From: Geodermatophilus pulveris
Lineage (GTDB): Bacteria; Actinomycetota; Actinomycetes; Mycobacteriales; Geodermatophilaceae
Assembly (NCBI RefSeq): GCF_900188375.1
Contig: NZ_FZOO01000009.1
Span: forward strand, 124,001-188,000
Direction of reading: 5' to 3'
Length of the DNA stretch: 64,000 bases
The notes beneath the pieces are model-generated. The model had not been told where the DNA came from and ran no database searches. It was given only the letters and a program-made list of their open reading frames with translations. Positions 26,094-54,992 of this stretch are shown piece by piece (position 1 is the stretch's first letter; each line of letters opens with the position of its first letter). A program made the position numbers and the translations under genes.

Positions 26094-27878
26094 CTAGCCG
26101 CCCACGGGGGCCGGGACCATCCAGCCGAGCACCGGCGTGGCCTGCAGCACCACGATCAGGCACATGAGCAGCAGGAGCAGGATGCTCCAGCCGAACACCT
26201 TCCGGAACAGCTCGCCCTCCCGGCCCGCCATGCCGACGGCGGCGGCGGCGATGGCCAGGTTCTGCGGGCTGACCATCTTGCCCATGACGCCGCCGGAGGA
26301 GTTGGCCGCCGCGAGCAGCACCGGGTCCAGCCCGGCGTTGGTCGCCGCCTGCACCTGCAGCGCACCGAACAGCGCGTTCGCCGAGGTGTCCGAGCCGGTC
26401 ACCGCGACGCCGATCCAGCCCAGGATGGGGGACAGGAAGGCGAAGAAGCCGCCGGTCTCGGCCAGCAGCCGGCCGAGGTGGCTGGTCATGCCCGACTGGT
26501 TGAGCACGTAGGCCAGGGCGAGCACCGCCATGACGGTGAGGATGGCCCACTTCAGCTCGCGGTAGGTGTCGACGTAGGCCTTGAGCCCCCGCGCCGGGGA
26601 GACCCGCAGCACCAGCATGGTCAGCAGGCCGGCGAAGATCATCAGGGTGCCCGCGGCGGGCAACCAGTTGAAGTTGTACGTGGTCGACGCCAGCTCGGCG
26701 TCCGACCCGGCCGCGAAGATGTTGAGCCCCGGCCACGCGAAGGACGTCGTGAACGGCGGCTCCGCCAGCGCGCTCTTGATCGGGCCGAGGTTGGCCAGCG
26801 AGAAGATCGCGATGATGATCCCGTAGGGGGCGTATGCCTTCACGACCTCGGCCCGGCTGTCGTCGACCGCCGGCCCGCCACCACCGACGGCGGGGGCGTG
26901 CGGGTCGCGGGCGTCCTGCCGGCCCGGAGCGTCGCCGAGCTGCTCGCCCGCCGTCGCGCCGATCCCACCGCGCGTGCCGTCGGACCCCGCGGCGGCGGTG
27001 CCACCCGCACCGCCGCCGACCGTGGCCGCGGTGACCGGCTCGTAGGCCGCCGTGCGCATCCGGACGACGGCGACGACGGCGGCCGCGGCCACCAGTGCGG
27101 CGATGATGTCGGTCAGGGGCACCGAGATGTAGTTGGCGGCCACGAACTGGGCCACGCCGAACGCGACGCCGCCGACCAGCGCCTCGCGCCAGGTGTCGCG
27201 CAGGCCGCGCTTGCCGTCGACCACGTACACCAGGACCAGCGGCACGAACGCGGCCAGGATCGGCGTCTGCCGGCCGGCCATGGCGCCCAGGGTGTCCACG
27301 GTGAGCCGGGCGTCGTCGCTGACGCCGGAGGTGACCGTGGCCAGCGTGATGATCGGCGTGGCCAGGGCGCCGAAGGCGACCGGCGCGGTGTTGGCGATCA
27401 GCGCAACGACCGCGGCCTTGAGCGGCTGGAAGCCCAGCGCCATGAGCATGACGACGCTGATCGCGACCGGCGTCCCGAAGCCGGCCAGCGCCTCGAGCAG
27501 GGCGCCGAAGCAGAAGGCGATGATGATCGCCTGGATCCGCTGGTCGGGGCTGACCTTCTCGAAGGAGCGGCGCAGCACGTCGAAGTGGCCGGTGGCGACG
27601 GTGAGGTTGTAGACCCAGATCGCGTTGATGACGACCCAGAGGATCGGGAAGAAGCCGAAGGCGGCGCCCTCGGACGCCGACAGCAGCGTCTGCCCGACGG
27701 GCATCCGGAACGCGACGATGGCCAGCACGACCGCGACGGCCAGCGAGATGAGCCCGGCCAGCCAGGCCTTGAGCTTCAGCGCGCCGAGGAGCACGAACAG
27801 GGTGAGCAGCGGGATCGCTGCCACCAGCGCGCTCAGTGCGAGTGACCCACCGACGGGGTCGACGACCTGCTCGAACAA
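26094..27878 (-). CDS. lctP: L-lactate/glycolate permease, LctP family
   Basis: 594 residues with about 13 membrane segments. Family motifs: FGALLEALAGFGTPVAI, ANTAPVAFGALATP, GVAVTGSDTSANALFG near the C-terminus, and NSSGGVMGKMVSPQ. The family contains both lactate permeases (LldP) and the glycolate permease GlcA; position at the end of a glcD-glcE-glcF operon favours glycolate or lactate uptake by H+ symport. An unusually long Gly/Ala-rich hydrophilic loop of about 75 residues separates the two halves. Start is TTG with AAGGAG five bases upstream. Confidence 0.85.
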   Translation of the reverse strand: MFEQVVDPVGGSLALSALVAAIPLLTLFVLLGALKLKAWLAGLISLAVAVVLAIVAFRMPVGQTLLSASEGAAFGFFPILWVVINAIWVYNLTVATGHFDVLRRSFEKVSPDQRIQAIIIAFCFGALLEALAGFGTPVAISVVMLMALGFQPLKAAVVALIANTAPVAFGALATPIITLATVTSGVSDDARLTVDTLGAMAGRQTPILAAFVPLVLVYVVDGKRGLRDTWREALVGGVAFGVAQFVAANYISVPLTDIIAALVAAAAVVAVVRMRTAAYEPVTAATVGGGAGGTAAAGSDGTRGGIGATAGEQLGDAPGRQDARDPHAPAVGGGGPAVDDSRAEVVKAYAPYGIIIAIFSLANLGPIKSALAEPPFTTSFAWPGLNIFAAGSDAELASTTYNFNWLPAAGTLMIFAGLLTMLVLRVSPARGLKAYVDTYRELKWAILTVMAVLALAYVLNQSGMTSHLGRLLAETGGFFAFLSPILGWIGVAVTGSDTSANALFGALQVQAATNAGLDPVLLAAANSSGGVMGKMVSPQNLAIAAAAVGMAGREGELFRKVFGWSILLLLLMCLIVVLQATPVLGWMVPAPVGG

Positions 27879-27954: not shown

Positions 27955-29580
27955 TCAGGAGGCGGCGGGCCGGGTCAGGGCGGTGCCGGGGCCGGTGAGC
28001 GCCCGCTCGAGCAGGTCCTCCACGGGCACCCCGCGGATCGAGGCGTCCAGCACCTGGACGGTGTGCGCGACCGGCATCCGCTCGCCCATCCGGGCCAGCG
28101 TCGTGGCCACCTGCATCCAGCAGCCCGGGTTGGCCGTGACCATGAGCTCGGCCCCGGTGACCAGGACGGCGCTCGCCTTGCGCTCGCCCAGCTCCCGGGC
28201 CGGCTCCGGCTGGAGCATGTTGTAGGTCCCGGCGCTGCCGCAGCACAGCTCCGCCTCGGCGATCGCCTTGATCTCCACGCCCGGGATGCCGCGCAGCACC
28301 TGCCGCGGTTGCTGGCGGATGCCCTGCGCGTGGGCGAGGTGGCAGGCGTCCTGGTAGGCCACGGTCATCGGCAGCGGGTGCCGCTGGGCCACCGGGCCGA
28401 GCTCGGTGATGAACTCGCTGATGTCCCGCGACTTCCGCGCCAGCGCCTCGGCGCGCTCGGCCCACTCCGGCTCGTCGCGCAGCTGGTGGCCGTACTCCTT
28501 GACGTTCGAGCCGCAGCCGGCGGCGTTGAGGATGACGTAGTCGACCCCGGCCCGCTCGAATGTCTCGATCGTCCGCCTGGCGAACTGCAGGGCCTGCTCC
28601 TCGCGGCCGCCGTGGCCGGGCAGGGCGCCGCAGCAGCCCTGGCTGCGCGGCACGATGACGTCGCAGCCCTCGGCGGCCAGCACCCGCACGGTGGCCGCGT
28701 TCACGTCGGGGAAGAAGGTGCCCTGCACGCAGCCGGCGAGCAGGCCGACGACGGCGCGGCGCTCGCCCACGGCCGGCGTCCGCTCGGGCACCCGCTCCAC
28801 CGGGCCGAGCTTGGGGGCCAGCGACTCCATCGCCTGCAGCGGCGCGGGCATCTTCCCCATCAGGCCCGAGCGGGTGAGCAGGCTGCCGAGCCGGCTGGCC
28901 TGGTAGGCCCGCAGCGGCCCGCGCAGCGCGCGCAGCCGCCGCGGGTAGGGGAACAGGTTGTAGATGAGGTCGCGGTAGAGCTTCTCCGCGCGGGACCGCT
29001 GGTAGCGCCGCTCGATCTGCGGGCGGGTGGCCTCGATGAGCTTGTCGTACTGCACGCCGGACGGGCAGGCGGTGACGCAGGCCATGCAGCCCAGGCACTG
29101 GTCGAAGTGCCGCACCATCGAGTCGTCGAGCGGCTCGCCCTCCAGCGCCTCCTTCATGAGGTAGATGCGCCCGCGCGGGCTGTCCATCTCCTCGCCCCAG
29201 AGCACGTAGGTGGGGCAGGTCGGCAGGCAGAACCCGCAGTGCACGCAGTCGCCGATGAGCGCGGCGTCCGGCGGGTGGTGCTCGTCGAACGCCGGCTGCA
29301 CCGCCTGGCGCGTGCCGGGCAGGCCGAGCAGCGTGGAGGTGCCCACGGTGGCGGCGCCGGTGCCCGGCGGCAGGTCGATGTCCTGGCCGAGGTCGAGCGG
29401 TCGGCGCGCACCGATCGCGGCGGCCGGCGCCTCGTCGGCGGCCCGCGCGGCGCCGGTGGCCGACCCGTTGGGCAGGTCGGCGGTCGAGTCGCGCACCGGG
29501 TTGACGTTCGCCGAGGCGCCCGGGGAACCGGCCGGCGGCGAGTCGCCGCGACCGTGGCTGCCCGGCGTGATCTCCGTCAT
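27955..29580 (-). CDS. glcF: Glycolate oxidase iron-sulphur subunit GlcF
   Basis: 541 residues. Two ferredoxin-type 4Fe-4S motifs (CVHCGFCLPTCPTY and CLGCMACVTACPSG) and two CCG repeats (GCCGALPGHGG; DACHLAH with ELCCGSAGTYN). It carries electrons from the flavin subunits to the membrane quinone pool. An extra disordered N-terminus of about 105 residues (Pro/Ala/Gly-rich) precedes the first cluster; E. coli GlcF lacks it. The ATG follows the glcE stop with no gap. Confidence 0.88.
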   Translation of the reverse strand: MTEITPGSHGRGDSPPAGSPGASANVNPVRDSTADLPNGSATGAARAADEAPAAAIGARRPLDLGQDIDLPPGTGAATVGTSTLLGLPGTRQAVQPAFDEHHPPDAALIGDCVHCGFCLPTCPTYVLWGEEMDSPRGRIYLMKEALEGEPLDDSMVRHFDQCLGCMACVTACPSGVQYDKLIEATRPQIERRYQRSRAEKLYRDLIYNLFPYPRRLRALRGPLRAYQASRLGSLLTRSGLMGKMPAPLQAMESLAPKLGPVERVPERTPAVGERRAVVGLLAGCVQGTFFPDVNAATVRVLAAEGCDVIVPRSQGCCGALPGHGGREEQALQFARRTIETFERAGVDYVILNAAGCGSNVKEYGHQLRDEPEWAERAEALARKSRDISEFITELGPVAQRHPLPMTVAYQDACHLAHAQGIRQQPRQVLRGIPGVEIKAIAEAELCCGSAGTYNMLQPEPARELGERKASAVLVTGAELMVTANPGCWMQVATTLARMGERMPVAHTVQVLDASIRGVPVEDLLERALTGPGTALTRPAAS

Positions 29581-30768
29581 CTACAACCCTCCGACGAACC
29601 GGCCCGGCGACATGCGTCGCTCGGGGTCGAACCTGTCCTTGACCCGCCGCATGAGGTCCAGCGCGTCACCGACCGGGCCCCAGTGGTCCAGCCGGTCACG
29701 GACGGCGTCGGGTGCGCGCAGCACCACCGCCGTCCCGTCGTGCGGTGCGAGGGCGCTGCGCAGGGCGGGCAGCACGGCGGCGACCTCACCGGCGGGGACG
29801 GCGGCGTGGCACACCCCCGTGCCGGCGTGCGCGGCCACGGCTGCCCCGGCGGGCAGGGCACCCAGCACCGACGACAGCGCGGCCGGTGCGAAGGCCAGCC
29901 GGAGCAGCACGTCGTCGGCGCCCCCGGGCCGGGCGCCGAAGTCGGCGGGCAGGTCCGCGGACTCCGTGCCGCCGCCGAGCAGGGCGACGGCCGAGCGCGC
30001 CTGGTCGCTGACCGACTCCGCGATGGACTCGAACAGCACGACCAGCCGCCCGGCGCCGCCGGCGGTGCCGATCAGCTCCACGGCCGTCGGGGTGAGCGTC
30101 GAGCGGCCCAGCGCGATCGCCAGCGACCCGGCGGCCGCGACGTCGGGCAGGTCGAGGGTGACCACCCGGCGCGCCGGCGGGACCGGGTGCAGCCGCCAGG
30201 TGGTGGAGGTCGCGACGCCGAGCGTGCCGTGGGCCCCGGTGAACAGCTTGCCCAGGTCGTAGCCGGCGACGTTCTTGACCACCTTGCCGCCGGCGTGCGC
30301 CACGGTGCCGTCGGCGAGCACGACGGTGATGCCGATGAGCAGGTCGCGGGTGGTGCCGTAGCGCAGCCGGCGCGGGCCGGAGGCGTTGGCCGAGACCACC
30401 CCGCCCAGCGTGGCGCCCTGCTCGGGCGGGTCCAGGCCGAGCAGCTGACCGGCCTGCCCGACCGACGCCTGCAGGTCGGCCAGGCGCACCCCGGCCTCGG
30501 CCACGACGGTCAGGTCGCCGGCCACGTGCTCGACGATCCGGTCCAGGCCGGTGAGGTCCAGCAGCAGGTCCGCGGAGGTGGGCGGCGCGGCCCACGTCGT
30601 CTTGGTGCGCCCGCCGACCGGGACGACGGTGTGCCCGGCGGCCGCCGCCGCCCGCAGCACCTCGGCGACCTGCTCGGTGCTCGCCGGCCGGACCACCTCG
30701 CCCGGGACCACGCCACCGACCGCGTCGTCGGCGCCGCCCGGCCTCCGGGTGTCGGTGGCGGTGGTCAC
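29581..30768 (-). CDS. glcE: Glycolate oxidase FAD-binding subunit GlcE
   Basis: 395 residues. PCMH-type FAD domain: VVPVGGRTKTTW, LTVVAEAGVRLADLQ, and GGVVSANASGPRRLRYGTTRD. A GKVVKNVAGYDLGKLFTGAHGTLG segment is diagnostic of GlcE. The C-terminal substrate-lid part is shorter than in GlcD. Forms the membrane-associated GlcDEF complex oxidising glycolate (or D-lactate) to glyoxylate (or pyruvate). GTG start after GAGGAGG. Confidence 0.88.
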   Translation of the reverse strand: MTTATDTRRPGGADDAVGGVVPGEVVRPASTEQVAEVLRAAAAAGHTVVPVGGRTKTTWAAPPTSADLLLDLTGLDRIVEHVAGDLTVVAEAGVRLADLQASVGQAGQLLGLDPPEQGATLGGVVSANASGPRRLRYGTTRDLLIGITVVLADGTVAHAGGKVVKNVAGYDLGKLFTGAHGTLGVATSTTWRLHPVPPARRVVTLDLPDVAAAGSLAIALGRSTLTPTAVELIGTAGGAGRLVVLFESIAESVSDQARSAVALLGGGTESADLPADFGARPGGADDVLLRLAFAPAALSSVLGALPAGAAVAAHAGTGVCHAAVPAGEVAAVLPALRSALAPHDGTAVVLRAPDAVRDRLDHWGPVGDALDLMRRVKDRFDPERRMSPGRFVGGL

Positions 30769-30844: not shown

Positions 30845-32347
30845 CTAGAAGACCTCGCCCAGGCCCGCCGCCTGCACCGGGTGCTCGCCCTTGCGCACGC
30901 CGGGTCGCTCGCCGCACAGCCGCGGGGTCGGGAAGACCTTGCCGGGGTTGGCGATGCCGTCGGGGTCGAAGGCGCACCGCACCAGCTGCATGGTGTCGAG
31001 GTCCTCGGGGGTGAACTGCTTGCCCATCTTCATCCGCTTCTCCTGGCCCACCCCGTGCTCGCCGGTGATGGAGCCGCCGGAGGTGATGCACAGCTCGAGG
31101 ATGTCCCCGGCCAGCTCCTCGGCCTCGTGGGCCTGCCCTTCAACCGCGTCGTCGAAGAGCACCAGCGGGTGCAGGTTGCCGTCGCCGGCGTGGAACACGT
31201 TCGCCACCCGCAGGCCCTTCGCGTCGGCCATGCGCTTCATCTCGGCCAGCACCTCGGGCAGCTTGGTGCGCGGGATGACGCCGTCCTGCACGAAGTAACT
31301 GGGGCTGATCCGGCCGACCGCCGCGAAGGCGGACTTGCGGCCCTTCCACATCAGCGCCCGCTCCTCGGCGTCGGCGGCGATGCGGACCTCGAAGGCGTTG
31401 CGCCGCTGGGCGATCTCCTCGACCTGCTTGAACTGCGCCTCGACCTCCACCCGCGGGCCGTCGAGCTCGATGACCAGCACGGCCACCGCCCCCTCGGGGT
31501 AGCCGCAGCTGACCGCGGCCTCGGCGGCCTCGATGGCCAGCGCGTCCATCATCTCCACCGCGGCGGGCAGGATGCCGGCGCCGATGATGTCGCTGACCGT
31601 GCCGGCGGCGTCCTCGACGGAGCGGTAGCCGACCAGCATGGTCTGCACCTCCTCGGGCACCCGGACCAGCCGCAGCGTCAGCTCGGTGGCCACGCCGAGG
31701 GTGCCCTCGCTGCCGATGAAGGCGCCCAGCAGGTCGTAGCCGGGGTGCTCGGGGGCGCGGCCGCCCAGGTGCACGACCTCGCCGTCGGGCAGCACCACCT
31801 CGGCGCCGAGCACGTGGTTGACCGTGAAGCCGTACTTCAGGCAGTGCGCCCCGCCGGCGTTCTCGGCCACGTTGCCGCCGATGGAGCAGACCAGCTGGGA
31901 GGACGGGTCCGGCGCGTAGGCGAGGTCGTGCGGCGCGGCGTCCCGGGTGACCCACAGGTTGATGACGCCGGGCTCCACGGTGACCTGCCGGTTGTCCGGG
32001 TCCACCGGGCCGAGCGACCGCAGCCGGGACAGCACCAGCAGGACGCCGTCCGCCCGGGGCAGCGCCCCGCCGGACAGCCCGGTGCCCGAGCCGCGCGCCA
32101 CGAACGGCACCCCGGCCTCCGAGCACAGCCGCACCGTGTCGACCACGTGCTGGCGGCTCTCGGCGAGGACCACGATCGCGGGGGTGACCTTGAAGTTGGC
32201 CAGGCCGTCGCACTCGTAGGTCCGCACCTGCGTGCGGTCGGTGAGCACCCGCTCGGTGCCGACGGCGGCCCGCAGCCGCTCGGCGAGCGCGGCGGTGCGC
32301 TCGGAGGTGGCCGGTTCGGCGGTGGCGTTCTCGGCGAGGGTGGTCAT
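30845..32347 (-). CDS. glcD: Glycolate oxidase FAD-linked subunit GlcD
   Basis: 500 residues. FAD-binding PCMH domain (PFVARGSGTGLSGGALP, QLVCSIGGNVAENAGGAHCLKYG, FIGSEGTLG) and FAD-oxidase C-terminal domain with the metal/substrate site FHAGDGNLHPL and the end motif GSITGEHGVGQEK. First gene of the glcD-glcE-glcF-lctP transcript, 76 bp ahead of glcE. Its promoter must lie in the gap shared with the divergent iclR. Confidence 0.9.
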   Translation of the reverse strand: MTTLAENATAEPATSERTAALAERLRAAVGTERVLTDRTQVRTYECDGLANFKVTPAIVVLAESRQHVVDTVRLCSEAGVPFVARGSGTGLSGGALPRADGVLLVLSRLRSLGPVDPDNRQVTVEPGVINLWVTRDAAPHDLAYAPDPSSQLVCSIGGNVAENAGGAHCLKYGFTVNHVLGAEVVLPDGEVVHLGGRAPEHPGYDLLGAFIGSEGTLGVATELTLRLVRVPEEVQTMLVGYRSVEDAAGTVSDIIGAGILPAAVEMMDALAIEAAEAAVSCGYPEGAVAVLVIELDGPRVEVEAQFKQVEEIAQRRNAFEVRIAADAEERALMWKGRKSAFAAVGRISPSYFVQDGVIPRTKLPEVLAEMKRMADAKGLRVANVFHAGDGNLHPLVLFDDAVEGQAHEAEELAGDILELCITSGGSITGEHGVGQEKRMKMGKQFTPEDLDTMQLVRCAFDPDGIANPGKVFPTPRLCGERPGVRKGEHPVQAAGLGEVF

Positions 32348-32592
32348 GGTGTCCTCACGGCAGGCGCTCGTACGCGGGCAGGGGCGGGGGGTCGGGGCAC
32401 TCGTCGGCCACGGCGGTCCCGGGGGAACGGTGTCCGTGCATCGTCCCACCGGCCGGAGGAGACGGCATCGTCGTGCCGGTCCCCGCCGCACGGGTCACCG
32501 CGGGACCGCCCGCGCCGGCGGTGGCGCTCATCGTCCTCCCTGGGTCGCTGTGCGGAGGGCGCCGACCTGTTCCGGGGACCGGGCGGCGCGGC

Positions 32593-32616
32593 TATCGTGC
32601 TTTCCACATCGCGGAA
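32593..32616 (+). promoter_or_regulatory. iclR promoter and IclR-type operator (TTCCAC-N3-GCGGAA)
   Basis: A TATCGT -10 (32593-32598) is followed by the imperfect palindrome TTCCAC-ATC-GCGGAA (32602-32616), which would cover the transcription start. The same twelve fixed bases recur at 37124-37138. The rest of the 339-bp gap between glcD and iclR holds no gene; a glcD promoter is expected but could not be placed. Confidence 0.5.
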
Positions 32617-32686
32617 CAGCCCGCTCGATCACAGGGAAAGTAGTGGGCCCGGTCACCCGGGGCAACTCGGGCTCGAGGGGTGGGGG

Positions 32687-33490
32687 ATGACGGCAGGGGC
32701 GGCGGCGCCGGGCGGCGCGGCGGACGGCGTGCAGTCGCTGGAGCGCGCCTTCCTCCTGCTGGAGCTGATGGCCGAGGCCGGTGGGGAGGTGGCGATCAGC
32801 CGGCTCGCGACCGACAGCGGGCTGCCGGTGTCGACCATCCACCGGCTGGTGCGCACGCTGGTGTCCCGCGGCTACGTGCGTCAGCTGCCGTCGCGCCGCT
32901 ACGTCCTGGGCCCGCGGCTGATCCACCTCGGCGAGTTCGCCGCGCGGATGCTGACCACCTGGGCGCGCCCGCACCTGACCTGGCTGGTCGACGCGATCGG
33001 GGAGACGGCGAACCTGGCCGTGCTCGACGGGGACCGGGTCGTCTACGCCGCCCAGGTGCCCTCCCGGCACTCGATGCGGATGTTCACCGAGGTCGGGCGG
33101 CGGGTGCACCTGCACTGCACCGGCGTGGGCAAGGTGCTGCTGGCCCAGTTGCCCGCCGAGACCGCTCGCGAGCTGCTGGTGCGCGGCGGCATGCCGGCCC
33201 GTACCGACCGCACCGTCACCGACCCCGACCGGCTGCTCGCCCAGCTGCCCCTGATCGCCGCGCAGGGCTACGCGGTCGACGACGGGGAGCAGGAGGCCGG
33301 GGTCCGCTGCGTGGCCGTCCCCGTGCCCGGCGGCTCGTCGGCCGGCGCCATCTCGGTGTCCGGACCCGCCGGCCGGCTCGGCCTGGACGCCGTCCCGCGA
33401 GTGGTGCCGCTGCTGCAGACGGCGGCCGCCGCGCTCGCCGCGGAGCTGCGGGAGGACGGCGTGCCGCTGCTCAGCGCCCCGTCCAGCTGA
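32687..33490 (+). CDS. IclR-family transcriptional regulator
   Basis: 267 residues. N-terminal winged helix (LERAFLLLELMAEAGGEVAI, GLPVSTIHRLVRTLVSRGYV, RRYVLG) and C-terminal effector domain (NLAVLDGDRVVYAAQV, LHCTGVGKVLLA, GYAVDDGEQEAGVRCVAVPV, GAISVSGPAGRL). IclR proteins often respond to glyoxylate, pyruvate or aromatic acids. Divergent from glcDEF, with an IclR-type palindrome at its own promoter and another before matC/sgaA, so it is the likely regulator of the whole island. Overlaps the convergent crotonase gene by 20 bp. Confidence 0.85.
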   Translation: MTAGAAAPGGAADGVQSLERAFLLLELMAEAGGEVAISRLATDSGLPVSTIHRLVRTLVSRGYVRQLPSRRYVLGPRLIHLGEFAARMLTTWARPHLTWLVDAIGETANLAVLDGDRVVYAAQVPSRHSMRMFTEVGRRVHLHCTGVGKVLLAQLPAETARELLVRGGMPARTDRTVTDPDRLLAQLPLIAAQGYAVDDGEQEAGVRCVAVPVPGGSSAGAISVSGPAGRLGLDAVPRVVPLLQTAAAALAAELREDGVPLLSAPSS

Positions 33491-34253
33491 CCCGCTCGCG
33501 GGCCACGAACGCCGCCACCCCGGCGCGGAAGTCCGCGCTGCCGTAGACGGTGCGCACCAGGTCGGTGTCGTCGGGCAGGCCGGCCCGGCGCAGCCGCACC
33601 ACCGCCTGCTTGGCCGCCCACATGCTCAGCGGGGCGTGGCCGACCAGCGTGGCGGTCAGCTCCTCCAGCGCGGCGTCCAGCCCGCCGTCGGGGCAGGTGG
33701 TGACGAACCCGGCCGCGGCGGCCTCGTCGGCGCCGAGCAGCCGGGCCCGCAGCAGCAGGTCCAGCGTCCGCGCCGGCCCCAGGTGCTGCACCAGCAGCGA
33801 GACGCTGTTGACCGACAGGCAGTTGCCGAGCGTCCGCGCCACGGGCACGCCGAACCGGGACGACGGGGTGGCCAGCCGCAGGTCGCAGGCCGCGGCGAGG
33901 GCCAGCCCCCCGCCGACGCAGGCGCCGTCGACCGCGGCGACCGTGGGCACCGTGACGTCCTCGAGCCGGGTGACCACCCGCTCGATGCCCTGCTCGTAGG
34001 CGACGCCGTCGTCCCCGCCGGTGAACTCCAGGAACTGGCTGATGTCGGTGCCGGCGACGAACGCCCGCCCGGCGCCGCGCAGCACCAGCACGCGCACCGC
34101 GTCGTCGGCGTCGGCCCGCTCGCAGGCCTCGTGCAGGCCCTCGTACATCGCGAAGGTCATCGCGTTGCGCTGCTCGGGCCGGGAGAACAGGACGGTCAGC
34201 ACCGCGCCGTCCTGGGTCACCTGCAGGTCCCCGTCCACGTGCTCGCCGCTCAC
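33471..34253 (-). CDS. Enoyl-CoA hydratase/isomerase family (crotonase)
   Basis: 260 residues, normal length. The two oxyanion-hole segments are present: RAFVAGTDISQF and DGACVGGGLALAAACDLRLAT. Neither typical hydratase Glu is clearly placed: the segment after the second loop is SSRFGVPVARTLGNCLS, so the reaction could be hydration, isomerisation or hydrolysis. The GTG start overlaps the CoA-transferase stop by four bases, so the two act on the same CoA ester. Substrate unknown. Confidence 0.8.
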   Translation of the reverse strand: MSGEHVDGDLQVTQDGAVLTVLFSRPEQRNAMTFAMYEGLHEACERADADDAVRVLVLRGAGRAFVAGTDISQFLEFTGGDDGVAYEQGIERVVTRLEDVTVPTVAAVDGACVGGGLALAAACDLRLATPSSRFGVPVARTLGNCLSVNSVSLLVQHLGPARTLDLLLRARLLGADEAAAAGFVTTCPDGGLDAALEELTATLVGHAPLSMWAAKQAVVRLRRAGLPDDTDLVRTVYGSADFRAGVAAFVARERVSWTGR

Positions 34254-35491
34254 GCGCCCTCCCCGGGGGCCACCGGCGCGGGCTCGGCGGGGACGACCGG
34301 CCCGGCCACGGCGTCGACCACGTCGGCGGGGACGCCGGCCCGCTCCAGGACCGTCCGGGTGTCGGCGCCCAGCGGCGGCCCGGCGTGGTCGCGGACGGCC
34401 GGGCTGGCCGACATGCGCATCGGCGACCCGAGCTGCCGCTGCGGGGGCAGGGTCGGGTGCGCGCCGTCCCAGAAGAACCGCCGCGCGTGCAGGTGGTCGT
34501 CGGTGAAGACCTGGCCGTGGTCGTTGATGGGGGCGCACGGCACGCCGGCCGCGCCCAGCGCCGCCAGCAGGTCCTCGGTGGTCCGGGCGGTCGTCCGGGA
34601 CTCCACGAGGTCCTGCAGCTCCGCGCGCAGGGCGTGCCGCCGGGTGGCGTCGGCGTAGCGGTCGTCCGCGAGGGCGTCGTCCATGCCCAGCGTGCGGCAC
34701 AGGCCGGCCCAGGTGTTGGGCGTGTTGGCGCCGATGGTCACCCATCCGTCGGCGGTGCGGAACGCCTGGTAGGGCGCCTGGCTCTGGTGTGCCGAGCCGA
34801 GCGGCCCGCCCACCTCCCCGGTGGCGAACCACCGGCCGGCCTCCCAGACCGCGAGGCTCACGCCGGCCTCGAACAGCGAGACGTCGATGCTCTGGCCGAC
34901 GCCGGTGCGGTCCCGCTCGCGCAGCGCGGCGGTGACCGCCAGGGCGAGGTAGAGGCCGCAGACCAGGTCGCACACCGGGACGCCGACCTTGACCGGCTCG
35001 CCCCCGGGGGTGCCGGTGATGCTCATGATCCCGCTGCGGGCCTGGGCCATGATGTCCAGCCCGGGCAGGGGGGCGAGCGGGCCGTCCTGGCCCCAGCCCG
35101 AGCCGGAGGCGTAGACCACGCGGGGGTTGACCGCCCGCACGGCGGCGGCGTCCAGGCCGAGCCGGGCCATGGCGCCCGGGCGCAGATTCTCGACGACCAC
35201 GTCGGCGGTCTCCACCAGCGCGAGGAACGCCCGCCGGCCCGCCTCGGACTTCAGGTCCAGCGCCACCGACTCCTTGTTGCGGTTCAGCCGCAGGTACGGC
35301 GAGCTCTCGTCGCCGACGAACGGCCCGCTGGCGCGCACCGGGTCGCCGGCGCGCGGGTCCTCCACCTTGATGACCCGGGCGCCGAGGTCGGCCAGCTGCA
35401 TGGCGGCGAAGGGGGCGGCCATGAACACGCCGACCTCCAGCACGGTGGTGCCGGTCAGGGGCGGCCGGGCCCCGTCGTCCGTCTCGGTCAT
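34250..35491 (-). CDS. Class III CoA-transferase (CaiB/BaiF family)
   Basis: 413 residues. Family III layout with LEVGVFMAAPFAAMQLADLGARVIKVE at the N-terminus, RNKESVALDLKSEAG, ENLRPGAMARLGL, and the catalytic Asp146 in PGLDIMAQA; the C-terminal lid contains GVPCAPINDHGQVFTDDHL. Transfers CoA between carboxylic acids through an aspartyl-CoA thioester. In this setting oxalate, malate, malonate or another dicarboxylate are candidates, but nothing in the sequence decides. Co-transcribed with the crotonase downstream. Confidence 0.85.
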   Translation of the reverse strand: MTETDDGARPPLTGTTVLEVGVFMAAPFAAMQLADLGARVIKVEDPRAGDPVRASGPFVGDESSPYLRLNRNKESVALDLKSEAGRRAFLALVETADVVVENLRPGAMARLGLDAAAVRAVNPRVVYASGSGWGQDGPLAPLPGLDIMAQARSGIMSITGTPGGEPVKVGVPVCDLVCGLYLALAVTAALRERDRTGVGQSIDVSLFEAGVSLAVWEAGRWFATGEVGGPLGSAHQSQAPYQAFRTADGWVTIGANTPNTWAGLCRTLGMDDALADDRYADATRRHALRAELQDLVESRTTARTTEDLLAALGAAGVPCAPINDHGQVFTDDHLHARRFFWDGAHPTLPPQRQLGSPMRMSASPAVRDHAGPPLGADTRTVLERAGVPADVVDAVAGPVVPAEPAPVAPGEGA

Positions 35492-35547
35492 GCGCCCTCC
35501 CCGGGTGCGCGTGTGGGTCGGTGGTGCGGGAGCCAGTGTGGCCCGGA

Positions 35548-35592
35548 CGCGACCGCGCCCCGGCGGCGGGGAGCCGTCCGGGGCGCGTCGCG
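35548..35592 (-). terminator. Terminator hairpin after matC
   Basis: CGCGACCGCGCCCCGG (35548-35563) and CCGGGGCGCGTCGCG (35578-35592) form a 15-bp stem with one bulged base and a 14-nt loop. It begins 14 bases downstream of the matC stop and separates it from the CoA-transferase gene, which therefore probably has its own promoter. Confidence 0.6.
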
Positions 35593-35606
35593 TGCTGCGG
35601 GGCCTG

Positions 35607-37073
35607 CTACAGCCAGCCGGGCACCACCAGGACCAGCCAGGTGACCAGCGGGACCACGGCCACCATCGAGAAGCCCCAGATGGTCAGCGAGCGGAACACG
35701 CTGTCCCGCTCGTTCTCCTGGGCGTTGGCCACGACCAGGGCGCCGCTGGTGGAGAAGGGGCTGGAGTCGACGATGGACGACGACAGCGCCAGGGCGGTGA
35801 TCAGGCCGATCGCGCCGATCGACTCGCTGCCGAGCAGGAACGGCACGGCCAGCGGGATGAGCGCGCCCAGGATGCCGGTGGTGGAGGCGAAGGCGGACAC
35901 GACCGCGCCGATGTAGCAGATCAGCAGCGCGGCGATGGTCGGGGCGCCGAGCTGGGCGACGTTGTCACCGAGCCAGCCGGGGGTGTCGATCTCCTGCATC
36001 AGCCCGACGTAGGTGACGATGCCGCAGATCAGCAGCACGGTGGGCCAGGCGATCTGGCCGACGGCGCCCTTCGCGCCGCGGGGGGCGACGATCGACAGGA
36101 TGACGCCGACGGTGATCGCCAGCAGGCCGATGTCCAGGCCGATCGGCAGCAGCGCACCGAGGACCAGGATGCCGAGCCCGATGAGGGTCAGCGTCCGGTC
36201 CCGGTCCAGCGAGGTGACCGGGCCCGGGCGGTCGGCGGTCGCCACCGCGGTGGTCTGCACGGCCTTGTCCTCGGCCCGCTCCTCCGCCTGGCCGTGCACG
36301 TGGCCGGGCTGCCCGTGCCGCGGGCTGCCGGCCGCGCTGGAGCCCCCGGCCCCACCCGTGCCCGGGGCCACCGCGCCGCCGGTGGACGGGCTGCCGACGG
36401 CCACCGGGCGGGCGTCGGCGTCCGTGCCGCCCTCGCCGAGGTCGACGCGCTGCGGGTTGCCGAGCAGCTTCTTGCCGCCGAACAGGAAGAACACCAGCAC
36501 GCTCAGCAGCACGTTGGCCACGATCGAGGCGACCCAGAGGAACAGCGGGCTGCCGGGCAGGTCGTTCTGGGCGACCACGTTGTTGGTGATCGACCCGAAG
36601 ATCGACAGCGGCGAGAAGCCGCCGGCCGTCGCGCCGTTGATGATGAACAGGCCCATCAGCAGCGGGTTGATGCCGTAGCGGCGGGCGAAGGACATGCCCA
36701 CCGGCGCGATGATCGCGACCACCGCGGGGACGACGCCGCCGATGGCGGTGAGGGCGCCGGTGACCGCGAACATCGCCCACGGGATGGCGACCAGCTTCCC
36801 GCCGGAGGCCTTGACCGCGGCGTGCACCAGCCAGTCGACCGTGCCGTTGTTCTTGGCGATCGCGAACAGGTAGGTGACGCCCACGAGGATGACGAACAGC
36901 GATCCGGGGAAGAAGCCGAACACCATGTCGGCGTACTCCTCGGACCCGAAGAGGAAGTACCCGAACACGAAGGCGGCCACGAAGGCGAGCGCACCCATGT
37001 GGACGGGCAGCACCGTGGCGATCAGGAAGACCGCCAACAGGACGAGGATCGAGACGAGCTGACTGGACACCAT
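35607..37073 (-). CDS. SLC13-like dicarboxylate carrier with MatC N-terminal domain
   Basis: 488 residues. N-terminal half matches the MatC_N type (VHMGALAFVAAFVFGYFLFG, FFPGSLFVILVGVTYLFAIAKNNGTVDWLV), and a C-terminal half of six helices has the conserved ASTTGILGALIPLAVPFL and SSIVDSSPFSTSGALVVANA. About 90 hydrophilic residues rich in Gly/Ser/His lie between the halves. MatC proteins carry malonate or other dicarboxylates with Na+. A glyoxylate-linked dicarboxylate would suit the neighbourhood. ATG start after AGGGG. Divergent from sgaA. Confidence 0.75.
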   Translation of the reverse strand: MVSSQLVSILVLLAVFLIATVLPVHMGALAFVAAFVFGYFLFGSEEYADMVFGFFPGSLFVILVGVTYLFAIAKNNGTVDWLVHAAVKASGGKLVAIPWAMFAVTGALTAIGGVVPAVVAIIAPVGMSFARRYGINPLLMGLFIINGATAGGFSPLSIFGSITNNVVAQNDLPGSPLFLWVASIVANVLLSVLVFFLFGGKKLLGNPQRVDLGEGGTDADARPVAVGSPSTGGAVAPGTGGAGGSSAAGSPRHGQPGHVHGQAEERAEDKAVQTTAVATADRPGPVTSLDRDRTLTLIGLGILVLGALLPIGLDIGLLAITVGVILSIVAPRGAKGAVGQIAWPTVLLICGIVTYVGLMQEIDTPGWLGDNVAQLGAPTIAALLICYIGAVVSAFASTTGILGALIPLAVPFLLGSESIGAIGLITALALSSSIVDSSPFSTSGALVVANAQENERDSVFRSLTIWGFSMVAVVPLVTWLVLVVPGWL

Positions 37074-37123
37074 TGCCCCTGACGTACGGGACGGACCCGG
37101 GGGCGCCGTCCTGATCTCCGTTG

Positions 37124-37138
37124 TTCCACGAAGCGGAA
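37124..37138. promoter_or_regulatory. IclR-type operator, second copy (TTCCAC-N3-GCGGAA)
   Basis: TTCCAC-GAA-GCGGAA has the same arms as the palindrome in the iclR promoter. It lies 51 bp upstream of matC and 167 bp upstream of sgaA, in the 231-bp gap between the two divergent genes. Confidence 0.5.
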
Positions 37139-37180: not shown

Positions 37181-37196
37181 TGTGTCAACTGTCACA
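37181..37196. promoter_or_regulatory. CRP/GlxR-like site upstream of sgaA
   Basis: TGTGT-CAACTG-TCACA differs from the CRP consensus TGTGA-N6-TCACA at one base. Its centre would be about 62 bp before the start point predicted from the TACGGT -10, a classical class I activation distance. Confidence 0.4.
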
Positions 37197-37238
37197 GAGA
37201 CCGTCCGGTCCGCTGGACAGCCGTCCGTCAGGCGGGAG

Positions 37239-37244
37239 TACGGT
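37239..37244 (+). promoter_or_regulatory. Candidate -10 of sgaA (TACGGT)
   Basis: TACGGT with a weak TGGACA 19 bases upstream (37214-37219). It would give a leader of about 55 nt before the sgaA ATG, unlike the leaderless promoters elsewhere in the window. Confidence 0.35.
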
Positions 37245-37304
37245 CCCGCATCGTGGAGTCCGGGTGGACCACGCCCGGCGTGGTTGCGGCGAGAGGGCGA
37301 TGAC

Positions 37305-38480
37305 ATGACGACCACGGGGACGGGCACCGGCGGCCGTCACTTCCTGCAGATCCCGGGGCCGACCAACGTGCCCGACCGCGTGCTGCGGGCCATGGACATG
37401 CCCACCATCGACCACCGCGGCCCGGAGTTCGCCGCGCTCGGCCGCGAGGTGCTCGAGGCGGTCAAGGCGCCCTTCGGCACCAGCAACCCGGTGGTCGTCT
37501 ACCCGGCGTCGGGCACCGGCGCCTGGGAGGCGGCCCTGTGCAACACGCTGTCCCCCGGCGACCGGGTGCTCTGCTTCGAGACCGGCCACTTCGCCACCCT
37601 CTGGCAGGACATGGCCCGCCGGCTCGGCCTGGAGGTCGAGTTCGTCCCCGGTGACTGGCGGCACGGCGTCCCGCCCGAGGCGGTGCAGGAACGGCTCGCC
37701 GCCGACCCCGGGCACGAGGTCAAGGCCGTCATGGTGGTCCACAACGAGACCTCCACCGGCGTCACGAGCCGGGTCGGGGAGATCCGCGCGGCGATCGACG
37801 CCGCGCAGCACCCCGCGCTGTACCTGGTCGACACGATCTCCTCGCTCGGCAGCATCGACTACCGGCACGACGAGTGGCGTGTCGACGTCACCATCGCCGG
37901 CTCGCAGAAGGGCCTGATGCTCCCGCCCGGCATCAGCTTCAACGCGGTCAGCGACAAGGCGCTCGAGGCCTCGCGGACGGCCCGGCTGCCCCGCTCCTAC
38001 TGGGACTGGGAGCCGATCCTCGCGGCCAACGCCAACGGCTTCTGGCCCTACACCCCGGCCACGAACATCCTCTACGGCCTGCGCGAGGCCCTGCGGATGC
38101 TGGCCGAGGAGGGCCTGCCCGACGTCTACGCCCGCCACCAGCGGCACGCCGAGGCCACCCGGGCCGCCGTCCGCGGCTGGGGGCTGGAGGTGCTCGCCCT
38201 GGACGAGCGGGAGTACTCCGGCTCGCTGACGGCGATCCTGCTGTCCGACGAGCACGACGCCGACGAGGTCCGCCGGGTCATCCTCGAGCACTACGACATG
38301 TCCCTGGGTGCCGGGCTGGGCCGGCTGGCCCGCAAGGTGTTCCGCATCGGCCACCTGGGCCACTTCAACGACCTGATGCTCGCCGGCACCCTCGCCGGCG
38401 TGCAGATGGGCCTGGTCCGCAGCGGGGTGAAGGTCGACCCCGCGGGCATCCAGGCGGCGCTGGAGGTGCTGGGGCAGTGA
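37305..38480 (+). CDS. sgaA: Serine--glyoxylate aminotransferase
   Basis: 391 residues. PLP fold type I, class V. Motifs HFLQIPGPTNVPDRVLRAM, IDHRGPEF, YPASGTGAWEAAL, VHNETSTGVTS, LVDTISSLG and the PLP lysine Lys202 in AGSQKGLMLPPG, with PRSYWDWE near 230; all are characteristic of SgaA. Converts glyoxylate plus serine (or alanine) to glycine plus hydroxypyruvate (or pyruvate). It would consume the glyoxylate made by the glycolate dehydrogenases. ATG 37305 has only a weak GAGAGG. Overlaps the next gene by four bases. Confidence 0.88.
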   Translation: MTTTGTGTGGRHFLQIPGPTNVPDRVLRAMDMPTIDHRGPEFAALGREVLEAVKAPFGTSNPVVVYPASGTGAWEAALCNTLSPGDRVLCFETGHFATLWQDMARRLGLEVEFVPGDWRHGVPPEAVQERLAADPGHEVKAVMVVHNETSTGVTSRVGEIRAAIDAAQHPALYLVDTISSLGSIDYRHDEWRVDVTIAGSQKGLMLPPGISFNAVSDKALEASRTARLPRSYWDWEPILAANANGFWPYTPATNILYGLREALRMLAEEGLPDVYARHQRHAEATRAAVRGWGLEVLALDEREYSGSLTAILLSDEHDADEVRRVILEHYDMSLGAGLGRLARKVFRIGHLGHFNDLMLAGTLAGVQMGLVRSGVKVDPAGIQAALEVLGQ

Positions 38481-41398
38481 CAGCCGCGCCGCCGCGACCC
38501 TCGACGGCCGCCGCCGAGCACGCCGACCTGGGCGCCGAGCTGAGCCGGGCCCTCGACGGCGAGGTCGCGTTCGACGACTACACGCGTCACCTGTTCAGCC
38601 AGGACGCGTCCATGTACGCGATGACGCCGGCCGGCGTCGTCTACCCCCGGCACGCCGACGACGTCGTCGCCACCGTGCGCCTGGCCGGCCAGGCCGGGCT
38701 GCCCGTGCTGGCCCGCGGGGCGGGCACCAGCCTGGTGGGGCAGACGGTGTCGCCGGGCATCGTCATGGACCTGTCCCGGCACATGTACGCCATCACCGAC
38801 CTGGACCCCGACGCCCGGACGGCGCGGGTGCAGCCCGGCGTGGTGCAGGACGAGCTGAACCGGGCGGCGGGGGAGCACGGGCTGATGTTCGGCCCGGACA
38901 CCTCGACGTCCAACCGCGCCACGATCGGCGGGATGATCGGCAACAACTCGGCCGGCAGCGGGTCCCTGCGCTTCGGGATGACCATCGACCACGTCCTGGA
39001 GATGGACCTGGTCCTCGCCGACGCCTCGACCACCCGCTGGGGCGCGCTCGACGAGGCCGAGCGGGCCCGCCGCGCCGAGGGCGACTCGCTGGAGGCCCGC
39101 ATCCTGCGCGGCCTGCCCGGCATCGTGTCCGCGCACGCCGACGCGATCGGCACCGGCTTCCCGGCCTACTGGCGCCGTGCCGGCGGCTACCGGCTGGACC
39201 GGCTGGCCACGGCCCCCCCGTACGACCTGGCCAAGTTCCTCGTCGGCTCGGAGGGCACGCTCGCCGTCACCACCTCGGCGCTGGTCGCCCTGGTGCCCAA
39301 GCCGTCCAGGCAGGTCTTCGCCGTCGGCCACTTCCGGTCGGTGCTGGAGGCCACCGCGGCGACCGGGGACGCCCTGTCCCTGGACCCGGCCGGCGTCGAG
39401 ATGATCGACAAGACCATCCTCGATCTGTCCCGGCGCAAGATCGAGTACGCCGGCCTCGGCCGGATCCTCGAGGGCGACCCCGAGGCGCTGGTGTTCGTGT
39501 CCTTCACCGGTGACGACGAGGCCGAGCTCGTCGCCTCCCTCGACCGGCTGACCGAGCTGTGGCGGCGCAACGGCCACGGCTACGCCACCCTGCGCGCGGT
39601 CACCCCCACCCAGCAGTCCGACCTGCTCAAGGTGCGCAAGTCCGCACTCGGCCTGCTCATGGCCGCCTCGGAGGGCGCCCGCCGCCCGCTGGCCTTCGTC
39701 GAGGACACCGCCGTCCCCCCGGAGCACCTGGCCGAGTACACGGCCCGCTTCCGCGACGTGCTCGACCGGCACGGCCTGGAGGCCGGCTTCTACGGGCACT
39801 GCTCGGTCGGCTGCCTGCACATCCGCCCGTTCGTCGACCTGACCGAGCCCGGCCAGGTGGAGACCATGCGGTCGGTCGCCGAGGAGGTCAAGGACCTCGT
39901 CCGGGAGTACGGCGGGGCCAACTCCAGCGAGCACGGCGACGGCCTGGCCCGCAGCGAGTTCAACCGGGAGCTGTTCGGCGAGGAGCTCTACCAGGCCATG
40001 CGCGAGGTCAAGGCGCTGTTCGACCCGGCGGGGGTCATGAACCCCGGCAAGATCGTCGACGCCCCGGCGATGACCGAGCACCTGCGGGACGCCGACCCGC
40101 CGCAGCCCGGGCCGCTGCGCACCCGGCTCACCTTCGACGTCGTCGGCGGCATGTTCGGCGCCGCCGACCGCTGCATGAACATCGGCCTGTGCCGGAAGTC
40201 CACGACCGGCACCATGTGCCCGAGCTACATCGCCACGCGCATGGAGGAGCACTCCACCCGCGGCCGGGCCGGCGCGCTGGTCAAGGCGCTGTCCGAGGGC
40301 GACCCGCACACCGCCCTGAGCGACGAGCGGCTGCACGAGGCGCTGGACCTGTGCCTGTCGTGCAAGGCGTGCAAGAGCGAGTGCCCGCTGGGCGTGGACA
40401 TGGCCTCGCTCAAGGCGGAGGCGCTGGCGCACAAGTACGACGTCCAGGGGGTGCCGCTGCGCGCCCGGGTGTTCGGCGCGATCCGCACGCTCAACCGGCT
40501 GGGGTCGGCGACGGCGCCGCTGTCCAACGTGCCCGGCCGGATCCGGCCGCTGCGAGTGCTCCTGGACCGGCGGCTGGGCATCGCCCGGCAGCGGCCGCTG
40601 CCCCGCTTCCAGCGGGACAACCTGCCGCGCTGGTTCAAGCGGCACCGGCCGGCCGGCACGCCCACCCAGGGCCGGGTCACCATGCTGGCCGACTCCTTCA
40701 CCAGCTACAGCGAGCCGGGCGTGGGCCGGGCCGTCGTCGAGCTGCTCGAGCACGCCGGCTACGACGTCCGGTTGGAGAGCCGGGGCTGCTGCGGGCGGCC
40801 GAGCATCTCCAAGGGCCTGCTCGACGACGCCCGCGAGAAGGCCCGCGGCCTGGCGGCGTCGCTGTGCGCCGGCGGGGCCGCCGACGGGCCGATCGTCGGC
40901 TGCGAGCCGTCCTGCATCCTCACGCTGCGGGCCGAGCACGTGTCCCTGCTGCCCGACGACCCCAACGTGCGGGCGGTGGCCGACCGGGTGCGGCTGCCCG
41001 AGGAGCTGCTGGTCGAGGCCATCGACGCGGGGCGGCTGCGGCTGCGCGAGGACAGCCGGCTGGCGGGCCGCACGATCGTCTTCCACGGCCACTGCCACCA
41101 GAAGGCCGAGGCCGGCACCGCGGCGACCGTGGCGCTGCTCAAGCGCATCCCCGGGGCCACGGTGCAGGAGCTGGACGCCGGGTGCTGCGGCATGGCCGGC
41201 TCCTTCGGCTACGAGACGGAGCACTACGACATCTCGCTGCGGGTGGGGGAGGACCGGCTGTTCCCGGCCGTCCGCGCCGCCGCCCCGGACGCCGTGATCG
41301 CGGCGACCGGGACGTCCTGCCGCGAGCAGATCCACCACGGCACCCAGCGCACCGCCCGTCACCCGGTCGAGTTGGTCCTGGAGGCCCTCGACCGGTAG
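38477..41398 (+). CDS. FAD-linked oxidase/Fe-S fusion, GlcD-GlcF or YdiJ-type 2-hydroxyacid dehydrogenase
   Basis: 973 residues. N-terminal GlcD-like half: PVLARGAGTSLVGQTVSPG, ATIGGMIGNNSAGSGSLRFG, FLVGSEGTLAV, GFYGHCSVGCLHIRP, NSSEHGDGLAR. C-terminal GlcF-like half: a CMNIGLC...MCPSY cluster and CLSCKACKSECPLG, then CCG repeats (RGCCGRPSISKG; FHGHCHQKAEAG with DAGCCGMAGSFG). Organised like E. coli YdiJ, a D-2-hydroxyglutarate dehydrogenase, and like D-lactate dehydrogenases. The GTG start overlaps sgaA by four bases, so its oxoacid product may feed the aminotransferase. A second, fused system beside glcDEF. Confidence 0.85.
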   Translation: MTAAPPRPSTAAAEHADLGAELSRALDGEVAFDDYTRHLFSQDASMYAMTPAGVVYPRHADDVVATVRLAGQAGLPVLARGAGTSLVGQTVSPGIVMDLSRHMYAITDLDPDARTARVQPGVVQDELNRAAGEHGLMFGPDTSTSNRATIGGMIGNNSAGSGSLRFGMTIDHVLEMDLVLADASTTRWGALDEAERARRAEGDSLEARILRGLPGIVSAHADAIGTGFPAYWRRAGGYRLDRLATAPPYDLAKFLVGSEGTLAVTTSALVALVPKPSRQVFAVGHFRSVLEATAATGDALSLDPAGVEMIDKTILDLSRRKIEYAGLGRILEGDPEALVFVSFTGDDEAELVASLDRLTELWRRNGHGYATLRAVTPTQQSDLLKVRKSALGLLMAASEGARRPLAFVEDTAVPPEHLAEYTARFRDVLDRHGLEAGFYGHCSVGCLHIRPFVDLTEPGQVETMRSVAEEVKDLVREYGGANSSEHGDGLARSEFNRELFGEELYQAMREVKALFDPAGVMNPGKIVDAPAMTEHLRDADPPQPGPLRTRLTFDVVGGMFGAADRCMNIGLCRKSTTGTMCPSYIATRMEEHSTRGRAGALVKALSEGDPHTALSDERLHEALDLCLSCKACKSECPLGVDMASLKAEALAHKYDVQGVPLRARVFGAIRTLNRLGSATAPLSNVPGRIRPLRVLLDRRLGIARQRPLPRFQRDNLPRWFKRHRPAGTPTQGRVTMLADSFTSYSEPGVGRAVVELLEHAGYDVRLESRGCCGRPSISKGLLDDAREKARGLAASLCAGGAADGPIVGCEPSCILTLRAEHVSLLPDDPNVRAVADRVRLPEELLVEAIDAGRLRLREDSRLAGRTIVFHGHCHQKAEAGTAATVALLKRIPGATVQELDAGCCGMAGSFGYETEHYDISLRVGEDRLFPAVRAAAPDAVIAATGTSCREQIHHGTQRTARHPVELVLEALDR

Positions 41399-53020: not shown

Positions 53021-54992
<1,972 letters not shown>

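Follow-up and report, generated by a model that had tools for sequence, protein, structure and literature searches.

A 64,000-nucleotide stretch of the Geodermatophilus pulveris genome (assembly GCF_900188375.1, contig NZ_FZOO01000009.1, positions 124,001–188,000; termed the window, its first letter being position 1) carries a gene for an IclR-family regulator, iclR, between glycolate oxidation genes (glcDEF-lctP) and two divergent units, matC-caiB-ech and sga-ydiJ, the latter beginning with a class-V aminotransferase gene. The regulator probably is an AllR-type repressor that is released by glyoxylate and whose operators serve these three units; we give this reading, which is drawn from comparative sequence analysis, a probability of roughly 0.7. 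As a dimer, or where boxes are in tandem as a tetramer, the regulator would bind operators of the type TTCC-RYNNNRY-GGAA in front of glcDEF-lctP (and of iclR itself), matC-caiB-ech and sga-ydiJ, and without inducer would block the promoters of the three units. Glyoxylate formed by glycolate oxidation would fill the IclR-type pocket, the regulator would leave the DNA, and uptake, oxidation and glyoxylate transamination would be switched on jointly. The locus appears to add a member, with shifted regulon content, to an established class of gene switches, an assignment well supported by comparison.

Operators of the window and their conservation in the family

A preliminary description of the locus had reported two exact copies of a 15-bp palindrome, and both were confirmed (operators 1 and 2, Table 1); glcD and iclR diverge around the former, matC and sga around the latter. 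Searching the whole 4,379,198-base genome for TTCCACNNNGCGGAA returned exact matches at these two places only, i.e. the motif is not scattered, and eight additional places match with one mismatch. As a palindrome the motif is imperfect, with five of six arm pairs being complementary. The shorter pattern TTCC-N7-GGAA occurs at eight genomic places (reversed control: three), among which operators 1 and 2 alone carry the R-Y...R-Y inner bases. Coincidence of the two copies would be favoured by the background of the generic pattern and by the number of matches with up to three mismatches in the window, which at 51 shows no excess over the shuffle mean of 47.1, so that only close matches are informative. 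However, the probability that chance places a second copy no more than 4.5 kb from the first is about 0.002, the sites are conserved in the family and beyond, and none precedes the internal genes counted below; we regard coincidence as already refuted. A coding-potential test of the one-mismatch sites was left unused, because it relied on stop-to-stop frames, called operator 2 coding as well and did not separate genes from gaps.

The claim that there is no third copy holds for exact matches; it needs correcting in view of a degenerate pair upstream of sga (37223–37258) and a weak box beside operator 1. Tandem boxes at operator 1 and at sga are a new feature of the present analysis. In the weak box, GGAA is offset by 22 bp from its counterpart in operator 1, which itself lies upstream of both flanking genes, 70 bases from the iclR ATG and 110 bases from the called glcD start. 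Operators 3a and 3b span 47 to 82 bases ahead of the sga start codon, and with this degenerate pair each of the three units would have an operator set of its own.

Conservation was assessed in a set of 112 Geodermatophilaceae genomes, 38 of which, including that of G. pulveris, encode the regulator (E ≤ 1e-40). Thirty-nine regions were fetched from relatives; one fell below the identity limit, and with the window the count for iclR comprises 39 loci. TTYC-N7-GRAA is present upstream of iclR in 27 of them, one-base variants in nine and neither in three, while among loci whose regulator is at least 65% identical, 34/35 have TTCC-N7-GGAA, exact or with one base changed, upstream of iclR. A second GGAA half-site adjoins the iclR core in 33/34 loci, at a spacing of 21 bp in 32 and of 22 bp in the window. 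The matC–sga gap contains TTYC-N7-GRAA in 19/21 loci and one-base variants in the remaining two. Together with the same regulator clade and motif ahead of glyoxylate genes in other orders, this conservation supports the earlier suggestion that an IclR-type regulator may govern both divergent units.

Operator 3b, which is proximal to sga, matches the consensus at 10 or 11 of 12 positions in 20/20 loci examined; operator 3a, 21 bp upstream of it, is one of the top four matches at 19 of these loci and is visible in the alignment for the remaining one. When the 110 bp next to sga were shuffled in loci of the window's family (300 mononucleotide shuffles, scoring the best single site rather than the pair), single loci gave values of 0 to 0.04. 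The loci with this pair are close kin, so conservation alone may instead reflect the promoter. Regulator and sga occur together in 21 genomes (38 with the regulator, 23 with sga, of 112; Fisher p = 1.7e-10, kinship being ignored).

TTGACA precedes matC in 21/21 loci, and operator 2 begins 49–50 nt past its first base, which would place it slightly past the point where transcription is expected to begin. Repression is favoured because of this position, and because the Streptomyces coelicolor homolog is stated in a passage of PMC12772271 to be a repressor. An alternative that we consider rather unlikely, albeit worth attention, is that the same protein at the same operators is a glyoxylate-dependent activator or dual regulator of glcDEF and sga, like BhcR of Paracoccus. 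BhcR is the top NCBIfam match of the regulator (190.2 bits; cut-off 350), BhcA is the nearest match of the sga product (Table 1), and the position of operator 1 upstream of both glcD and iclR would be compatible with activation. According to sections of PMC11323563, BhcR, the nearest studied IclR-type regulator of glycolate metabolism, is an activator in vivo, and Paracoccus without it does not grow on glycolate and has basal bhc promoter activity; glyoxylate weakens BhcR binding to DNA in vitro. In contrast, the fixed spacing of the matC operator downstream of the putative −35 box and the location of the sga pair suit blocking, in line with the statement on the S. coelicolor homolog.

Orthologs and operators in other Actinobacteria

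A scan of GTDB contigs yielded at least 80 loci with the regulator (80 kept of 240 relatives), 66 of which (L100–L165) make up the wider set. Regulator neighbourhoods include allantoinase/allantoicase, malate synthase A, hyi-glxR-gcl, glcDEF and the sga module; beyond the window, neighbour proteins were family-tested at a few loci, the other contexts resting on tblastn. Allantoinase (632.5 bits) and allantoicase (412.1 bits) of a Streptomyces locus (L115) exceed their cut-offs, as do all six malate synthase A proteins tested from six loci.

The placement of the motif relative to gene order was counted in 105 loci (104 distinct ones, since L080 and L107 denote one contig; L086–L099 were excluded as repeats of the window's family), taking tblastn matches over identity thresholds that start within the first 60 query residues, and scoring the loose motif TTYCRYNNNRYGRAA in an interval that begins 350 bp ahead of the projected start and reaches 30 bp into the gene. 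It precedes leading genes in 135/233 cases (Hyi 16/17, MatC 22/26, Sga 21/26, IclR 48/103, AceB 28/61), compared with 0/214 for ten internal genes (YdiJ, CaiB, ECH, GlcE, GlcF, LctP, DUF6986, GlxR, Gcl, Alc); the division into leading and internal genes was chosen after the counts had been seen, and a site in a shared gap was scored for both genes. AllB (8/22) and GlcD (4/23) were placed in neither group. The reversed motif gave no match in the 1.13 Mb of the wider loci. Box pairs with 21-bp spacing also precede hyi at six loci (L105, L132, L138, L150, L156, L157).

With respect to gene order, malate synthase A in relatives is often located between operator 1 and glcD or divergent from iclR (L049:7698–9308, L147:911–2620, L118:8381–9907; these three were among those confirmed by family tests); in the window, glcD follows operator 1 directly. 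Several regulator neighbourhoods have a DUF6986 protein adjoining malate synthase A (L125:7087–8274, 583 bits; 22 DUF6986 matches counted), which may be an unrecognised enzyme of a glyoxylate pathway. The sga-ydiJ/matC-caiB-ech-iclR block also occurs in Pseudonocardia (L102, L106; in L100 and L103 without a caiB match), where no glcDEF was called within the fetched stretches.

A motif model, R1, was built from 47 operators; one (L107) comes from the window's genus, and the other 46 come from other families or groups (including some unplaced metagenome-assembled genomes). Within the window, operators 1 and 2 are top-ranked (13.1 and 10 bits); in the whole genome, at E ≤ 10 and with 150 of 460 candidates scored, operator 1 is the sole match listed (13.1 bits, E 0.64). 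A two-mismatch match at 53493–53507 (+), TTCCACAGCGCGGTG, is weak in this model (7.1 bits, E 0.91). Further genes of the G. pulveris genome were considered as regulon members and rejected. A malate synthase G gene on contig C16 (a 169-amino-acid piece matches the family) and a Gcl-like match on contig C14 (36% identity) have no credible R1 site nearby, the 13 kb around the two genes containing a single match of 3.5 bits (E 3). The allantoinase gene of contig C17, whose product exceeds the cut-off at 557.6 bits, has no operator in its 3.6-kb locus, and TTCC-N7-GGAA was not found anywhere on that contig. A family search of the genome revealed no malate synthase A over cut-off, and a close gcl was not found, the best match being the one with 36% identity.

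Several observations weigh against control of the three units by this regulator. A looser pattern, TTCCRYNNNRYGGAA, occurs 0–6 times per family genome, with at least one match in 87/112, and since genomes lacking the regulator are among these, the pattern alone is neither specific nor diagnostic. Operator 2 is not among the whole-genome matches listed for R1 (150 of 460 candidates scored). The palindrome is present before aceB-glcDEF in genome G052 (L175:4163–4177), which has no close regulator ortholog (best IclR-type protein, 35% identity); this copy may be a relic or may be bound by another IclR protein. Two incomplete genomes (G096 and G098, 67% and 80%) have sga and operator 2, and the regulator was not found in them. 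Only 31 of the 66 wider loci carry the loose motif before iclR (20/66 in strict form), and it is within 300 bp of glcD in 0/15 wider loci, perhaps because aceB leads many such operons. Of two control genomes with glcD and without a regulator ortholog, G058 did not contain the palindrome in a 13-kb stretch; it is the copy in the other, G052, that speaks against the simplest reading.

The regulator, its ligand pocket and the genes of the locus

The iclR product comprises an N-terminal winged helix-turn-helix domain and a C-terminal effector domain, both scoring over cut-off. A rapid maximum-likelihood analysis of 95 proteins, run without bootstrap and excluding S. coelicolor AllR itself, placed it in an 86-protein clade (Shimodaira–Hasegawa-like approximate likelihood-ratio test, SH-aLRT, 97) together with regulators from Streptomyces allantoin loci, which presumably are AllR because of their allantoin-gene setting. 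Its sequence relationships assign the Geodermatophilus protein to the AllR orthologous group of Actinobacteria. The control over allantoin genes that characterizes AllR is not apparent in the G. pulveris genome, whose allantoinase gene lacks an operator, and the regulator is therefore classed as an ortholog and not as an allantoin regulator. Seven paralogs (five from G. pulveris, two from G052 and G058) as well as IclR and AllR of Escherichia coli fall outside the clade, and the branches among them are long.

Binding of the operators by a different IclR-family protein of the cell is improbable. Five further IclR-family genes are present in the genome (E ≤ 1e-12), IclR-family motifs resemble each other according to part of PMC8222616, and G052 retains the palindrome without the ortholog; yet the five paralogs are at most 41% identical to the regulator and lie outside its clade, and in other orders, too, the sites occur alongside its orthologs, internal genes serving as controls.

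The glyoxylate oxygen-contact positions of E. coli IclR (160, 161, 212, 239, 241) were taken from a passage of PMC11323563. The window protein has G160, D212, S239 and S241 like E. coli IclR, but V161. Among 80 orthologs, D212 and S239 are invariant, S241 occurs in 79/80 and G160 in 59/80, and position 161 is V in 80/80 (A in E. coli IclR); of the seven paralogs, one has D212 and six have S241. The hydrophobic patch is partly changed (S, M, V and V at 143, 146, 154 and 220). With the patch and position 161 differing, G160 in only 59/80 orthologs and S241 also in 6/7 paralogs, the pocket evidence is partial and counts against as well as for glyoxylate; its residues discriminate only partly between orthologs and paralogs and were rejected as proof of the ligand. 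Glyoxylate is the metabolite common to the glc, gcl, malate synthase, allantoicase and sga pathways. As the ligand it appears more probable than glycolate or malonate. That the ligand is instead glycolate, pyruvate, malonate or a product of allantoin breakdown is unlikely in our estimation: the altered patch, the allantoin genes adjoining the Streptomyces orthologs and the MatC carrier within the putative regulon would fit such a ligand, whereas the conservation of most oxygen-contact residues and the presence of glyoxylate in all contexts found argue for glyoxylate.

The genes of the locus are compiled in Table 1. For the genes other than lctP, the families agree with the calls of the preliminary description, which had omitted the family-III CoA-transferase, the enoyl-CoA hydratase and the dehydrogenase encoded after sga. 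Among the GlcD, GlcE and GlcF types, GlcF alone exceeds its NCBIfam cut-off, and the true glcD start may be further downstream than called. An open reading frame at 32680–33546, which is in a different frame from iclR and lacks a Pfam match, was rejected as the regulator frame. The iclR and enoyl-CoA hydratase genes share 20 bases tail to tail (33471–33490). A family-III CoA-transferase and a hydratase adjoining a glyoxylate-type aminotransferase form an odd combination.

Table 1. Operators, putative promoter element and genes of the iclR locus (positions within the window)
Feature	Position	Strand	Remarks
Operator 1 (TTCCACATCGCGGAA)	32602..32616		glcD/iclR intergenic; exact match; tops model R1; kept in relatives
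Weak second box of operator 1	32624..32638		GGAA at 32635–32638; half-site spacing
Operator 2 (TTCCACGAAGCGGAA)	37124..37138		matC/sga intergenic, 50 bases before matC ATG; exact match; kept in relatives
Putative −35 box of matC promoter, TTGACA	37183..37188	-	fixed spacing to operator 2
Degenerate operator 3a (GTCCGTCAGGCGGGA)	37223..37237	+	upstream of sga; 10/12 consensus positions
Degenerate operator 3b (TCCCGCATCGTGGAG)	37244..37258	+	21 bp from 3a; 10/12 consensus positions; ends 46 bases before sga ATG
iclR, IclR-family regulator, 267 amino acids	32687..33490	+	HTH_IclR 60.2 bits (cut-off 22), IclR_C 137.1 bits (cut-off 24); tree
glcD, glycolate oxidase subunit	30845..32491	-	Pfam flavin adenine dinucleotide (FAD) domains over cut-off; GlcD models 550 and 496 bits, below cut-offs of 897 and 568
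glcE	29581..30768	-	GlcE model 142 bits, below cut-off of 284
glcF	27955..29580	-	GlcF model 336.5 bits, above cut-off of 333
lctP-type permease gene, last of glc unit	26094..27878	-	identity as in preliminary description; neighbour kept in relatives
matC-type dicarboxylate carrier gene, first of leftward unit under operator 2	35607..37073	-	MatC_N 166.7 bits
caiB, CoA-transferase family III, second of matC unit	34250..35491	-	416.3 bits
ech, enoyl-CoA hydratase/isomerase family, third of matC unit	33471..34250	-	family match
sga, class-V aminotransferase	37305..38480	+	nearest L-aspartate--glyoxylate aminotransferase BhcA, 454.8 bits, below cut-off of 650
ydiJ, fused FAD/iron-sulfur D-2-hydroxyacid dehydrogenase, YdiJ-like	38477..41398	+	594 bits, below cut-off of 1350; overlaps sga stop

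Relation to known glyoxylate regulators

We lean towards the view that a single orthologous regulator of Actinobacteria, whose operator is almost invariant, provides exchangeable control of the glyoxylate node, the operator having come over evolution to precede lineage-specific glyoxylate makers and removers, namely allantoin genes, hyi-glxR-gcl, malate synthase A, glcDEF and sga-matC; in G. pulveris, whose genome yielded neither malate synthase A nor a close gcl, these would be glycolate oxidation and transamination. The Streptomyces allantoin regulator would then represent one form of a more general glyoxylate regulator, with targets shifting between lineages and a constant DNA address. Searches of the open-licence literature found neither a description of a glycolate/transamination regulon controlled by this ortholog nor a study of glycolate use in Geodermatophilaceae; for the latter, the locus offers a testable set of regulator, operator and targets, and the sga-ydiJ/matC-caiB-ech module gains a likely physiological signal.

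IclR and AllR of E. coli have the control of glyoxylate genes in common with the window regulator, as proposed here, and E. coli IclR shares with it the four pocket residues named above. They differ in their position outside the regulator clade and in their A+T-rich operators, TGGAAATNATTTCCA and KTTGGAAWAWTWTTCCAAC (Table 1 of PMC8222616). BhcR of the β-hydroxyaspartate cycle of Paracoccus denitrificans likewise belongs to the IclR family, lies near the gene for a BhcA-type aminotransferase and acts in glyoxylate metabolism. Membership of the window genes in that cycle was rejected, as the regulator and the sga product score below the BhcR and BhcA cut-offs; the neighbours from glcF to ydiJ are of kinds other than bhcB, bhcC and bhcD, for which no genome search was made. 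Glycolate oxidase of Paracoccus is controlled by a separate GntR protein, GlcR, according to a passage of PMC11323563, whereas in the window one operator type covers both the glycolate oxidase and the aminotransferase units.

The operators resemble those of IclR group 1, for which parts of Suvorova and Gelfand 2021 (PMC8222616) give the core TTYCRY-N3-RYGRAA and a tandem spacing of 18–22 nt; its main text does not mention glycolate. The core of the window motif fits, the central W3 does so only partly, and the spacing of 21–22 bp is within the range. As in that group, palindromic operators are found in tandem near the regulator gene and adjacent operons.

A close parallel is AllR, which Navone and colleagues reportedly described in 2015 (AEM 81:6649) as the allantoin regulator of Streptomyces coelicolor. 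The Streptomyces members of the clade adjoin allantoinase and allantoicase genes, several with malate synthase A nearby, and have the same operator type as the window. In contrast, the proposed regulon of G. pulveris consists of glycolate oxidation and glyoxylate transamination, and its allantoinase is encoded on another contig without an operator.

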